Assembly (NCBI GenBank): GCA_018333865.1
Contig: JAGXSE010000023.1
Location: forward strand, 1-64,000
Reading direction: 5' to 3'
Source: Syntrophomonadaceae bacterium
GTDB taxonomy: Bacteria; Bacillota; PH28-bin88
DNA length: 64,000 bases
A program made the position numbers and the translations under genes. How positions within the stretch are numbered: position 1 is the first letter of the stretch; every line of letters starts with the position of its first letter. Positions 12,240 to 18,550 of this stretch are shown here, piece after piece. The notes under the pieces are model-generated. The model was not told the DNA's origin and searched no databases. It saw only the letters and a program-made list of their open reading frames with translations.

Positions 12240-12270
12240 CTAGCAAGTCAAGAACCGTCCCCGACTTGCT
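12240..12270 (-). repeat. REP-like remnant hairpin
   Basis: CAAGTC at 12245 and GACTTG at about 12264 enclose AAGAACCGTCCCC, a reverse-oriented fragment of the GGGGACGG-GTTCTTGAC repeat. It overlaps the last codons of the downstream nitrilase. Confidence 0.55.
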
Positions 12271-13327
12271 CTCCGTATATTCCTGGCAGGTAGTGTTGAT
12301 ATAACGCCAGGTTCAGGTCGCCCCACAATCGGCTTAAGGTGCGGATTTCCCGCAGGGCTTCCAGGTCCAGATCCGCCACCACAACCTCCTCCTTATCGTG
12401 GCTCTGTGCTTCCGCGAGCATTCCGTCCCCTTTTGGCGTAAGTTCCATCGGGGCGCAGATGCAGGATCTGCCGGCCAGGTTCAGCCCGAAGAAATCATGG
12501 GCGACGAGGGTGCTTTTAATCCCGTAAACCAGGCTTTCCTGTACCCGCGGCCAGATGCCCCGCAAAGCCTTCCAGTGGCTGTACACCACATCGGCCGAGG
12601 GAAGCATCACAACCTCCGCACCCATTAATGACAAGAGCCGGAATGTTTCAAAATAGGTGGCATCCATACAGACAGGCATGGCCAGCCTGCCCAGGGGGGA
12701 GGAGTATACCAGAAGCTTACTCCCCGGTGCCAGGCCCCATTCGGATTCCAGGGGCAAGAGGTGCAGCTTTTCCTGAACACCCACCAGCTGGCCGTCAGGG
12801 CCGAACAGGTAAGCGGTGTTGGTGACCCGGCCCTGGTCGTTGGCTGCCACTATACTGCCAGCCATGATAAAAATTTCAAACCGTCTGGCCAGCTCAGCAA
12901 AGGTGGTAAAATATACCGAGCGGGACACCGGGGTAAGATAAGCGAAGATATCCGCTACCTTGACATCCGGCCCAAGTTGATGGAGGGCGCCGGTCAGGGT
13001 GGCACCGGCCGGAAGATCCTTAAGCCCAGGTAACAGGCCCAAAAGGTGAGTGGCATTGTCTTCCGGGAAGACTACCAGCTGGGCGCCCTGGTCTGTCGCT
13101 GCCCTAACATGGTGATACATCTGCTCCACATAGGCCAGGGGGTCCTGCACCAGGCGAAGTTCCGCCTGGACTGCGGCTGCCCGCACCCGGCTGGTATTAA
13201 TTGTCCGAAGGGTTCCCGCTGGCCTGATCCCTTTCCCGTCCAGGTACTGCCGGATCAGGGCCGGCCGGGTTTTCCAGCACAGGTATTGCAGGAATGCCTT
13301 TTCTTTCAGCTTGTTCCAGTAGCTCAC
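12248..13327 (-). CDS. Carbon-nitrogen hydrolase (nitrilase superfamily), intact triad
   Basis: A 359-residue cytoplasmic nitrilase-superfamily amidase. The full triad is visible: Glu89 in VVFPED, Lys187 in VQEKLHL and Cys220 in MPVCMDATYFE. A 45-residue N-terminal extension precedes the domain. The start is a GTG overlapping the TGA of the upstream gene (GTGA), so translation is coupled. The same operon encodes a degenerate paralogue and a glycosidase-like protein. Substrate unknown; the superfamily includes amidases, carbamoylases and biotinidase-like enzymes. The last codons lie in a REP-like remnant, which may have altered the original C-terminus. Confidence 0.9.
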   Translation of the reverse strand: MSYWNKLKEKAFLQYLCWKTRPALIRQYLDGKGIRPAGTLRTINTSRVRAAAVQAELRLVQDPLAYVEQMYHHVRAATDQGAQLVVFPEDNATHLLGLLPGLKDLPAGATLTGALHQLGPDVKVADIFAYLTPVSRSVYFTTFAELARRFEIFIMAGSIVAANDQGRVTNTAYLFGPDGQLVGVQEKLHLLPLESEWGLAPGSKLLVYSSPLGRLAMPVCMDATYFETFRLLSLMGAEVVMLPSADVVYSHWKALRGIWPRVQESLVYGIKSTLVAHDFFGLNLAGRSCICAPMELTPKGDGMLAEAQSHDKEEVVVADLDLEALREIRTLSRLWGDLNLALYQHYLPGIYGEQVGDGS

Positions 13328-14277
13328 CCCTGATCACCCGCCTTCTGCTGGTAAATATGGGGAAAGTGCCGCCGGTACAGCGGCTGGTTGAAGTGCCGGA
13401 AGATTGGATAGTTGTCCGCCACCTGGCGGTGGACGGTGAAGTCTAGTTCGGCTGCCAGTGGTTGGGGTGGTGGTTCACCCCATCGAAAGGGGGAGGCAGC
13501 AGTCCACTCAAGGGGCGGTCCGCCGTCCGCAGGCGGGATGGGGGCGAAAAAGCCTGTCTCGCCGGGTGTGGCTTCACATGGCCCATAAATGGCGCTCCAG
13601 CCGCACCAATCCACTCCTGCCATCGGCCCGCCGGGCCAGTTTTCCAGGGCGAACACCTGGTTTTGCTGTACCTCCTGCCACATACCGGCCAGGGCCAGGT
13701 GGAAGCCGGCCGGCGCCGGGACCAAGGCCGGCGCCAGCAAGACCCGGGCTCCTTGCAGGGTGAGTATCCGGCTTACCTCCGGGTACCATTCGTCGGTGCC
13801 CACCACCAGCCCCAGGGGTCCGATCTCCGTTGACCACACCACCAGATCTGATCCCCGCGCCCATCCCCACTCCCGCTCCATGCGGGAGTGGTGGGTTTGG
13901 GCCTGCTCCCCCAGCAGGGTGCCATCGGGCTGGTAAATAGGAGCGATATGCAATAACCGGTCACCCCGCCTCACCCAGGTGGTGCCGGCGGCCAGAAACA
14001 ATTTGAACCTTTTCGCCATCTGACCATGCAGGTCGTGGTGCCGGTTCATGGTATCGGGGTCGCCGGCAAGTGCCTGTACCGCCGATGAAAAATCGGCAGC
14101 GCCTACGGTCCCCTTCATAGCAAGCCCGGTACCGCCCGGCAGCAGGGCCAGACGGACCCCCCGGTCCGCCAGAACAGCCAGACCACTGGCAAGCCAAAAC
14201 CGGTAATCGTCAGCCGTCTTGATGGTACTCAAATCTAACCCCAGGCATCCTGCCATTACCTTGCCAACAGTATCCAT
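13324..14277 (-). CDS. Catalytically dead nitrilase-fold paralogue
   Basis: A 317-residue protein that aligns by eye along its length with the next gene downstream. GEQAQTHHSRMEREWGWARGS matches GVQEKLHLLPLESEWGLAPGS once compared in short blocks, and GTDEWYPE matches VCMDATYFE. All three catalytic positions are changed: Glu to Gly48, Lys to Gln127 and Cys to Gly160. The reading frame is clean and full length, so this looks like a conserved pseudoenzyme rather than a decaying gene. It abuts the upstream glycosidase-like gene (TAA followed directly by ATG) and overlaps the intact nitrilase by four bases. It may form a heteromer with, or regulate, the active paralogue; that is inference. Confidence 0.82.
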   Translation of the reverse strand: MDTVGKVMAGCLGLDLSTIKTADDYRFWLASGLAVLADRGVRLALLPGGTGLAMKGTVGAADFSSAVQALAGDPDTMNRHHDLHGQMAKRFKLFLAAGTTWVRRGDRLLHIAPIYQPDGTLLGEQAQTHHSRMEREWGWARGSDLVVWSTEIGPLGLVVGTDEWYPEVSRILTLQGARVLLAPALVPAPAGFHLALAGMWQEVQQNQVFALENWPGGPMAGVDWCGWSAIYGPCEATPGETGFFAPIPPADGGPPLEWTAASPFRWGEPPPQPLAAELDFTVHRQVADNYPIFRHFNQPLYRRHFPHIYQQKAGDQG

Positions 14278-16173
14278 TTACTTCACCTCACTGCTCCGCT
14301 CAAAACCGTTAGCTGGTTCTGCCGGCCGGCCCCACCGCCGGTAAATGGCGGAGGCCAGAAAACCGGCACAGGTGGCGAAGGCCAGCCCGGTCCGGGCGAC
14401 TCCGGTGGCTGGGTCCAGGGTCTCACAGGCCAGGCCGTTATCCATCGGGGCTTTTTGAATAAGTTCCCGGGACGGTGCATCCATTCCGGCCAGGAGGGCA
14501 GCGGAGAGGCCCAGTACCCAGGGTCCCGGCGCATGGGTGCAACCAGGTCCAGCAAAGTGCCCTTGGGGGCCGTGATAAGGGTTGGCTGGTGAATGGATAA
14601 AGCGCAGGGTATTTTGAAAAACAGGGTCGTCTTGTGGGCAAAAGCCGTAGTGGGCCAGGAGCATCAGGCTGCCCGGCGGTGAGTCGTATAATTCATGCCG
14701 CCCTTGCCCATCAACTGCCCAGGCAAACATTTGGCCAAAAGGGCCTTCCACGATGCCGTGCAGGAGAATCGCCTCTTTCAGGGCTTGGGCCTCCCGGGCC
14801 AGATTCCGCCCCGGCCAGAGTTGGTAGGAAAGGTTTAGCCGGTGGAGGATGGTCAAGGCCCGCCAGGCCAGCACCTGGTCATAGATTAAAAAGGGATAGG
14901 TGACCGGGTCATCGGCAGGGTCCAGAAAGGTGTCGTAAAGTCCGGCGGCCGGATGGCGGTGTTGGTCCAGCTCCTCCAGGATCAGGCGGAGGCCCCGGGG
15001 GATTTCCGGCTCGCTCAATACTTCCGGGTCGCCACCTGCCGTCAGGTAGCCGTCCAGGGCCAGCACGAAGGCTGCCAGCTGATCCAGTTCAAAACCCGGG
15101 TACAACAGGCTGCCGTTAATATACTGGGCATGCTGGCCCGGATTTTTCAGGTGCCGGCGGTAGCCTGCCAGGAGCACTTGCCGGGCCCGCTCCCGGCCGG
15201 TTAACAGCAGGGCGGGGAAGCTCCACAGGAAAGTATCCCGCGGCCAGAAGGCGCCGCTGACATAGTACCTTGGGCTGCGAGAGGTAACAGGGGCGCACTC
15301 TTCCGTATCAATGGTGTTGCCCACGGCGAAGAAGTGGTTGAAGAGGAGGTTTTTATGCAAAACCCGGTCCAAGCCAGGGTCGCCGGTTGTAAACCTCCTT
15401 TCGTTCAGCCACTGTTCGGTGGTCGAACGCAGGCGGGGGTAGCCCAGCCGTCGCAGGTGGACCAGGGTGGTGGCAGCTCCGTCTCCCTCGGCATTGGCTG
15501 CCGCTAGCAGGGTGAGCTCCCTGGTATCACCGGGTGGAATGACAAAATCCTGCCGGAGGGAGAACCGGCTGGCCACCCCCAAGGGAGAGTTGGCCTGGTG
15601 GGTAATAGAAACATGGGGATCTTCGCTGCCAAAGGCCAGGGCAGCGGCGGCCAACCCCGGGCGGCATTCCAACACCAGGCTTTTGGTCCAATTGCTATAG
15701 CTTATGGTGTTGCCTGCTGTTACCCGGGATGTGAAGACGGTCTGACGAGTTTCCGCCCAGGCCCCTTTCCACCCTATAGTGACCGGGAGGGAACGGGAAC
15801 CGGTATTGGTGACGGCCAGGTGGTAACAGAACCCCTTCTGGCCCGGAGGGGCAAAAACTTCCCCGGTTAGCCGGAGCTGTTCATGACTGAAGCTGAAGGT
15901 AGGGACCCAGTCCCCTCGGCACTCCCACACCAGGTTGCCTTGCAGGTCCACTGGGTTATCTGCTGCCAACAAAAAGGGCTGCAACAGGGGTTGTTCCGCT
16001 GAACCATAAAACTCCAGCAGACCAAGGGCCTGCATGCTGAGCACATTGGCACATTCCACCGCCCCGGTAGCGGGGTCGATGAGGGGCAGGCTGACATACT
16101 CATTGCCTGTCAGGTGATAGGGGCGGTAGTTGTCCACCGCAGGCGGCACCGTGAGGAATTTATTTTCGTTCAT
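14278..16173 (-). CDS. Six-hairpin glycosidase-like protein
   Basis: A 631-residue protein with an N-terminal beta-rich half (to about residue 250) and a C-terminal half rich in alpha-hairpins, the layout of (alpha/alpha)6-barrel glycosidases. The core segment GAFWPRDTFLWSFPALL resembles the WPRD/WLRD motif of GH125/GH15-like families, and several Trp- and Asp-rich loops follow (YDQVLAW, QMFAWAVDGQGRHELYDSPPG). No signal peptide is evident, so it should act in the cytoplasm. GGAGG precedes the ATG at 16173. It is the first gene of an operon with two nitrilase-fold proteins. A sugar substrate linked to an amide bond, such as a glycosyl-amide, is a possibility but not shown. Confidence 0.65.
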   Translation of the reverse strand: MNENKFLTVPPAVDNYRPYHLTGNEYVSLPLIDPATGAVECANVLSMQALGLLEFYGSAEQPLLQPFLLAADNPVDLQGNLVWECRGDWVPTFSFSHEQLRLTGEVFAPPGQKGFCYHLAVTNTGSRSLPVTIGWKGAWAETRQTVFTSRVTAGNTISYSNWTKSLVLECRPGLAAAALAFGSEDPHVSITHQANSPLGVASRFSLRQDFVIPPGDTRELTLLAAANAEGDGAATTLVHLRRLGYPRLRSTTEQWLNERRFTTGDPGLDRVLHKNLLFNHFFAVGNTIDTEECAPVTSRSPRYYVSGAFWPRDTFLWSFPALLLTGRERARQVLLAGYRRHLKNPGQHAQYINGSLLYPGFELDQLAAFVLALDGYLTAGGDPEVLSEPEIPRGLRLILEELDQHRHPAAGLYDTFLDPADDPVTYPFLIYDQVLAWRALTILHRLNLSYQLWPGRNLAREAQALKEAILLHGIVEGPFGQMFAWAVDGQGRHELYDSPPGSLMLLAHYGFCPQDDPVFQNTLRFIHSPANPYHGPQGHFAGPGCTHAPGPWVLGLSAALLAGMDAPSRELIQKAPMDNGLACETLDPATGVARTGLAFATCAGFLASAIYRRWGRPAEPANGFERSSEVK

Positions 16174-16223: not shown

Positions 16224-18431
16224 TTAGTTGATTGGTTTGTACTGCCATCTTTTTAGCCTCAAGGCATTGGAAACCACCGATACGGAGCTTAAGGCCATCG
16301 CCGCCCCGGCAAGCACCGGGTTTAAGTAGCCCAGGGCTGCGATCGGAATGCCTAAAGTATTGTAAATGAAAGCCCAGAAGAGGTTTTGCTTAATATTCCG
16401 CATGGTGGCCTTGCTCAGTTTGATGCTGGCCGGGATACCGCTTAAATCGCCGCGCATCAGGGTGATATCCGCCGCTTCCATGGCTACATCCGTGCCGGTG
16501 CCGATAGCTATCCCCACATCGGCAGTGGCCAGGGCTGGCGCGTCGTTAATCCCGTCTCCCACCATGCCTACCTTTTTTCCCTGGCTTTTAAGTTTTTGTA
16601 TCTCTTTAGCCTTATCCTCCGGCAAGACCTCTGCCAGGACATTGGTAATCCCCACCTCTCTGGCGATGGCCATGGCCGTGCGCTGGTTGTCGCCGGTAAT
16701 CATCACCACGGCAATACCCATTTTCTGCAGTTCCCTGATGGCCGCCAGGGAATTTTCTTTTACCGTATCGGCCACGGCGACAATTCCCGCTGCAACACCA
16801 TCCACGGCTAGCAGCATCGCGGTCTTGCCCTGGGATTCCAGTTCAGCCATTATTTCCTCTGCTTTGGCAATGGCTACGTTTCTTTCCCGCATCAGTTTCC
16901 TGGTTCCCAGCAAGATATTTTTTCCCTGCACCTTTGCTTCCACACCGTGTCCAGGAATAGCGGAGAAGCTTTCCGGGTCGGGCAAATCTCCCAGGTTCTC
17001 TTTTCCTCGTTTTGCGATTGCTTCCCCCAGGGGGTGTTCGGAGCCCTTTTCCGCAATGGCGGCCAAGCGGAGCACCTCATTTTCTTCAACACCAGCAAGG
17101 CTCAATACATCAGTGACTTCGGGCTGGCCTTTGGTGATGGTGCCGGTTTTGTCCAGCACGATGGTATCCAGTTTATGGGCGTTTTCCAGGTGCTCGCCCC
17201 CTTTAATCAGGATCCCGTGTTCGGCTCCCTTGCCTGTTCCTACCATGATGGAAGTGGGAGTGGCCAGGCCCAGGGCGCAGGGGCAGGCGATCACCAAAAC
17301 GGCGGTAAAGTTGATCAAGGCTCTGGTGAAGTTGCCGGGGTCGCCCAAGAAGTACCAGGAAGCAAACGTAACCATGGCTATGCCGATTACGGCAGGAACA
17401 AAATAAGCTGAGATCAGGTCCGCCAGCCGCTGAATCGGGGCCTTGGAGCCCTGGGCCTCCTCCACTACCTTAATGATCTGGGCCAGGGCCGTGTCTTTGC
17501 CTACCCTGGTGGCCTCAAACTTAAAGCTGCCATGCTTGTTAATGGTGGCGCCAATTACTCGATCGCCTGGCTTTTTATCTACCGGAATGCTTTCCCCGGT
17601 AAGCATGGATTCGTCAATGGCGGAAAACCCTTCTTTGATCACGCCGTCGACCGGGATTTTTTCCCCAGGGCGGACAACAATCAGGTCGCCGACAACCACA
17701 TCCTGGATCGGCAGGTCAAATTCCTTGCCTTCCCGGATCACCAAGGCTGTTTTGGCTTGCAGGCCCATCAGCTTTTTAATTGCTTCCGAAGTCCTGCCTT
17801 TGGCGAGGGACTCCAGGAGCTTGCCCAGGATAATCAGGGTGATAATCAAAGCTGATACTTCATAATAAACATGCTTCTGGCCAATCTGGTGGCCCCAGAA
17901 AGTGACGATGAGACTAAAGATGTAGGCAGCTGAAGTACCCATGGCTACCAGCACCGCCATGTTGGCGCTGCGGTTTTTCAAAGCAAAATAGGCTTCCTTG
18001 TAAAACTGGCTGCCAGCTATTAATTGGATGGGGGTGGCCAGGGCCATTTGAAAGTAGTGGTTATAGAATAGAGGCGGGACCAATCCCCCGCCCAGCATCT
18101 TGTCCACCATAAACAAGAATAAAGGCAAAGAGAGGATGCCGGAAAAAATGAAATAAGCCTTTTGCCGCCCAATTTCCTTTTCTCTGGCGGCCTTCTCTTT
18201 GTCAATATCCAAGCTGTCATCAACGACTTGAGCCTTAAACCCAAGCTTTTCGATTGTTTCCTTCAAGTCCCGGACTTCAATTTTCCCGGCAAGGTAGACA
18301 ACAGAGGCCTTTTCCGTGGCCAGGTTAACACTGGCTTTGGTTACACCCGGCATTTCGTGCAACTTTTTTTCAATTTTTGCGGCGCAAGCGGCGCAGTTCA
18401 TGCCCTGAATTTTTAAAGTTATCCTCTGCAT
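16224..18431 (-). CDS. copA: Copper-translocating P1B-type ATPase
   Basis: A 735-residue integral membrane Cu(+) exporter. One N-terminal heavy-metal-associated domain with GMNCAAC, TM segments from about 90, the transmembrane CPCALG metal site near 384, DKTGTIT phosphorylation site near 427, the HP motif GSEHPLGEA and the hinge [10 protein letters not shown] near 625. The CPC plus C-terminal membrane pattern (YNxxxIPIAA, then [15 protein letters not shown]) indicates the Cu(+) subgroup. The second of two close ATGs (18431) is preferred because GAGGGAG lies six bases upstream of it. No CopZ or CsoR neighbour is present. It reads away from the iron-regulated block. Confidence 0.95.
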
Positions 18432-18550
18432 TCCCATCTCCCTCTCAATCCTAAATGAATTTAGTTGCAGTTACCTTTGTTTGTAATCCTTATTATATCC
18501 TTTTAGCTATAAAGAGAGTGAAATTTTTTTGCACTATAAGCACAAATAGC

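Follow-up and report, generated by a model that had tools for sequence, protein, structure and literature searches.

Pairs of an active enzyme and a pseudoenzyme are known in several families. In the openly licensed papers searched, we found no bacterial nitrilase for which an obligate inactive partner is described, the sorghum heteromers alone being relevant, and we found nothing relevant on GH125 together with a nitrilase. In sorghum, NIT4A and NIT4B (NIT4A/NIT4B2) are heteromeric plant nitrilases (PMC5154151). In the case of CpGH125, Asp220 is the acid and Glu393 is the base, and Asn302 contacts O2 of mannose (PMC9883506). Here we report that the window, the whole stretch of 64,000 nucleotides that was analysed, encodes a conserved and selected enzyme-pseudoenzyme pair of the nitrilase fold, whose members are fused in some genomes, with a linked glycosidase.

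Results

Three genes with intact frames lie in a row on the minus strand of the window. The first, GH (14278..16173), encodes a GH125-like (alpha/alpha)6 glycoside hydrolase of 631 aa with an N-terminal beta domain. It is followed by A (13324..14277), which encodes a nitrilase-fold pseudoenzyme of 317 aa, and by B (12248..13327), which starts with GTG and encodes a nitrilase-superfamily enzyme of 359 aa. The stop of GH and the start of A adjoin with 0 nt between them (14277..14278), and the stop of A overlaps the GTG start of B by 4 nt (13324..13327). Coordinates, strand, frames and the coupled junctions of 0 to 4 nt are all as the preliminary description stated. A gene for an HMA-domain P-type ATPase (assigned by Pfam; 16224..18437, minus strand) lies 50 nt upstream of GH on the same strand. 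Of 85 loci, only 4 contain the P-type ATPase cluster, at a median distance of about 5.7 kb, and it was therefore placed outside the conserved module.

Both A and B exceed the Pfam CN_hydrolase cut-off of 23.2 bits (PF00795; 36.2 bits for A and 79.6 bits for B). Alignment of B to its orthologues places the catalytic triad at Glu89 (13061-13063), Lys187 (12767-12769) and Cys220 (12668-12670), all on the minus strand. In a joint alignment, the corresponding residues of A are Gly48 (14134-14136), Gln127 (13897-13899) and Gly160 (13798-13800), also on the minus strand; these are exactly the pairs that had been aligned by eye.

An initial search among relatives turned up eight genomes, spread across the phylum, that carry A and B in tandem. 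We then used the B alignment to scan contigs of GTDB genomes, which yielded 156 confirmed relatives, and kept the best 80 as B loci. These are mostly from Bacillota MAGs, and a few are from records titled Hakubella, Actinomycetes, Nitrosymbiomonas and Acetobacteraceae. At 5 of the 80 loci, the contig end cuts off the upstream sequence. At all 75 others, A directly precedes B, and no B without A was found among them; a lack of conserved linkage, which had been named beforehand as evidence against a functional unit, was thus not seen for this pair. In 71 loci, A is a separate gene that immediately precedes B on the same strand, and the gap from A to B is 150 nt or less in 70 of these 71 pairs (median -4 nt). 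In the other four loci (L079, L084, L118 and L141), A and B are one ORF, and a further fusion was found outside the set of 80 (L152). The adjacency of A and B is strict even where GH and the transporter described below are absent.

Several other observations were made in this survey. An orphan A without B alongside adjoins a glutamate-synthase-like gene (L165:8328-9131, minus strand; G096). A further nitrilase paralogue with Glu-Lys-Cys, 35% identical to B and from the same genome, is encoded at G000:C33:8257-9255 (L061:8227-9258), and no second nitrilase was found beside it. Carriage by phages was rejected, since only weak general CN-hydrolase matches were obtained. Linkage to CoaE, PolA, MutM, isocitrate dehydrogenase and YbaK is concentrated in Syntrophomonadaceae-like loci and was taken as shared synteny.

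The triad is distributed as the reading of an active enzyme with a dead paralogue had proposed. Among the best 80 of the 156 relatives, Glu-Lys-Cys is kept in B at all 80 loci, while no A with the full triad, the other observation named in advance as contradicting this reading, was found at any of them. The commonest pattern in A is Ala/Gly-Gln-Gly. Gln occupies the Lys site in 95% of A proteins, the Glu site is mostly Ala or Gly, and the Cys site is mostly Gly, with Ser, Ala, Asp, His, Gln or Asn in others. Seven A proteins possess Cys without Glu and Lys (L079, L081, L084, L103, L104, L107 and L110). Because the same loss of the triad is seen in the orthologous A proteins at 75 loci, it is far beyond chance. 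Furthermore, A has conserved residues of its own. At the site of the conserved Glu after RVQ (E264 in B numbering), Gln is found in 99% of A proteins, with an adjoining Asn in 99%; a near-invariant Asp at 222 and a conserved His at 189 (B numbering) are kept, and the motifs Q-x-Q-T-H and W-Q-x-V-Q-Q-N-Q are recognizable. These near-fixed residues show that the pocket of A was remodelled and then held constant, without drift. One B orthologue (L157:7483-8658, minus strand; G127) keeps Glu and Lys and has Gly at the Cys site, and the neighbouring A is also dead.

A is under purifying selection like B and GH. Between the window and UBA2598, dN/dS was 0.21 for A, 0.19 for B and 0.20 for GH, and between the window and PH28_bin88 the values were 0.22, 0.17 and 0.20, respectively. 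Together with the intact orthologues, these values rule out that A is a pseudogene or a sequencing artefact. In a tree of 187 rows, B forms one clade (SH-aLRT 99), and all 78 A rows form one set with two sequences from G027 (SH-aLRT 98). Pairwise identities of A and B correlate with a Pearson coefficient of 0.91 and a Spearman coefficient of 0.76 over 3003 comparisons, values that are inflated by shared ancestry. The mean identity is 37% for A and 47% for B; A evolves faster.

A divergent A'-B' tandem of one family was observed in three genomes (G027, G107 and G195; L059:6275-8187, L166:7443-9366 and L168:6413-8330). Both A' and B' have lost catalytic residues, B' reading P-Q-P, T-K-A or P-K-C. 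The tandem is followed by a protein of similar size (about 444 aa), of which the two copies tested (L166 and L168) gave no Pfam match.

The preliminary description had proposed prediction of the heterodimer. We ran AlphaFold2 on the natural fusion L118 (662 aa), and a confident arrangement of two packed nitrilase folds was predicted, with a pTM of 0.87 from an alignment that is shallow in the B half (5 rows). The pLDDT was 85.4, and the linker and N-terminus are predicted to be disordered. By VIA-align, residues 46-301 of the model (A half) match yeast Nit2 with a Z of 29.8, and residues 347-653 (B half) match Nit2 with a Z of 31.3. The fused model is evidence in favour of a heterodimer of A and B but no proof of one.

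GH scored 68.4 bits against PF06824 (GH125; cut-off 23.4), the match covering only profile positions 205-354 of 414. In the predicted structure (pTM 0.92), the nearest match is GH125 (Z of about 40, with an rmsd of 2.8 over about 360 residues), and over its whole length the model is similar to glucodextranase and other enzymes that carry an N-terminal beta domain. The "six-hairpin" glycosidase of the preliminary description is therefore a GH125-like (alpha/alpha)6 protein according to both PF06824 and the model. The putative acid of GH is D421 (14911-14913, minus strand), which aligns with CpGH125 D220, and the putative base is E584 (14422-14424, minus strand), which aligns with CpGH125 E393; both are invariant in 26 relatives. 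CpGH125 Asn302 falls at a gap against GH, in a loop where the alignment is uncertain. Because GH has no clear counterpart of Asn302, mannose specificity should not be assumed.

The linkage of all three genes, which had been claimed from the window alone, stands in part. Among 299 genomes of the phylum, B is present in 56, GH in 43 and both in 39, which gives an odds ratio of 137 and a Fisher p of 7e-31, figures that are inflated by shared ancestry. GH is truly linked to B: B is present in 39 of the 43 GH genomes, and in 30 of the 39 genomes with both, GH and B are adjacent, a few kb apart at most on one contig and in varying gene order. However, GH lies elsewhere in 9 of the 39 and is absent from 17 of the 56 B genomes. 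Thus, A-B can work without GH. One 1078-aa ORF, directly after A, is a B-GH fusion (L145:5821-9057, minus strand; G256). An MFS_2/MFS_1 transporter is encoded at 37 of 85 loci, and an Amidohydro_2 protein adjoins GH in a few. Some GH loci that have no A-B alongside encode sugar-binding proteins, permeases and LacI or ROK regulators. The linkage pattern and these sugar-related surroundings suggest that GH belongs to sugar catabolism, with A-B as a frequent but inconstant companion.

In the sister genome UBA2598, a transporter gene is located between GH and A, and its end overlaps the start of A. This gene is absent from the window; at 14216-14299 (minus strand) there is a short out-of-frame likeness to it (61% over 28 aa), which possibly arises just from the overlapping A frame. 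The transporter was either lost in the window or gained in UBA2598. No close counterpart of the sister-genus transporter or amidohydrolase was found in the window's genome.

Discussion

We consider it likely that A and B constitute an obligate heteromeric amidase in which A is inactive, and that this enzyme often takes part in the catabolism of an imported glycoside. The heteromeric amidase had been one suggestion of the preliminary description. It is strongly favoured by the invariant adjacency, the natural fusions and the confident fused model, from which we infer the association itself. A and B would be two subunits of a C-N hydrolase of the amidase type. Judging from the triad, B would perform the catalysis by the usual mechanism with a Cys nucleophile, Lys and Glu. 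A, its nitrilase fold permanently inactive, would pair with B, probably via the dimer surface of the family, and may stabilise, position or gate B, a role that would be structural or regulatory. In many hosts, an MFS/GPH-type or ABC transporter would import the glycoside, the GH125-like enzyme would cleave off the sugar by inversion inside the cell, and B-A would act on the substrate or the aglycone by hydrolysing an amide or a similar C-N bond; in some genomes, the amidohydrolase may act too. We infer this intracellular route from gene linkage. A glycosylated amide is one option for the substrate, and a mannosylglyceramide-type compound was considered but not adopted. The more specific proposal, that the constantly paired pseudoenzyme defines a new class of heteromeric amidase which degrades a glycosylated amide together with the GH125-like hydrolase and the importer, is put forward only tentatively, and we would sooner doubt than assert it.

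The role of A might be explained in other ways. A pocket that was remodelled and conserved without erosion, with its Q-x-Q-T-H and W-Q-x-V-Q-Q-N-Q motifs, would suit ligand binding, and A might therefore be an independent sensor or chaperone that regulates the pathway and is translated with B for dosage rather than as a subunit. We regard this as unlikely, because fusion of A to B (4 of 80 loci, and L152) and strict adjacency even without GH or transporter favour a physical complex. The retained Asp 222 and His 189 (B numbering), as well as the Cys of seven A proteins, might instead point to an enzyme of different chemistry that uses other residues of the pocket. However, A has no conserved nucleophile, and Gln stands at the Lys site and also in place of Glu264, so that such an activity seems very improbable. 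Loss of the triad and evolution faster than that of B (37% versus 47% mean identity) could also be expected of a decaying duplicate, a pseudogene in the making that is kept by chance. We give this almost no credence: the orthologue survey refutes it, since A is intact in all 75 loci, has a dN/dS of about 0.2, descends as an ancient single lineage and carries conserved motifs of its own.

GH may be a genomic bystander, with A-B having a general role unconnected with sugars, as its absence from 17 of 56 B genomes and its location elsewhere in 9 of the 39 genomes with both would allow. This is somewhat unlikely in our judgement, given the odds ratio of 137, the 30 adjacent cases with differing gene orders, the B-GH fusion and the recurrent sugar transporter.

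About 75 paired orthologues, the fusions, the A proteins that keep Cys and the doubly degenerate sister pair make the order of catalytic loss testable, and the same natural set makes the job of the pseudosubunit A directly testable. Moreover, the linked glycosidase and transporter offer a way into a so far uncharacterised route of catabolism in poorly cultured Bacillota and some neighbours.

Comparison with known systems shows both likenesses and differences. The sorghum NIT4A/NIT4B enzymes resemble the proposed A-B heteromer in that two nitrilase-superfamily paralogues form one heteromer and act in the turnover of a glycosylated compound (dhurrin). In contrast, they are plant branch-1 nitrilases, whereas A-B is bacterial and A is without the full triad in every orthologue. 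B, unlike NIT4A/NIT4B, resembles the amidase-type and carbamoylase branches (N-carbamoylputrescine amidase, that is, the AguB-like TIGR03381, PH0642 and Nit2) in fold and Glu-Lys-Cys triad. It scored 58.1 bits against the TIGR03381 equivalog, far below the cut-off of 410. B also differs from these enzymes in that CMDATYFET replaces CxDxxFPE, a long stretch is inserted behind the Glu, the N-terminus is extended and a partner is constantly present. GH shares the (alpha/alpha)6 fold and the aligned acid and base residues with the exo-alpha-1,6-mannosidases CpGH125 and SpGH125, at 18-20% identity. However, about 230 additional residues at its N-terminus form a beta domain like that of clan GH-L glucodextranase, which sets it apart from them.
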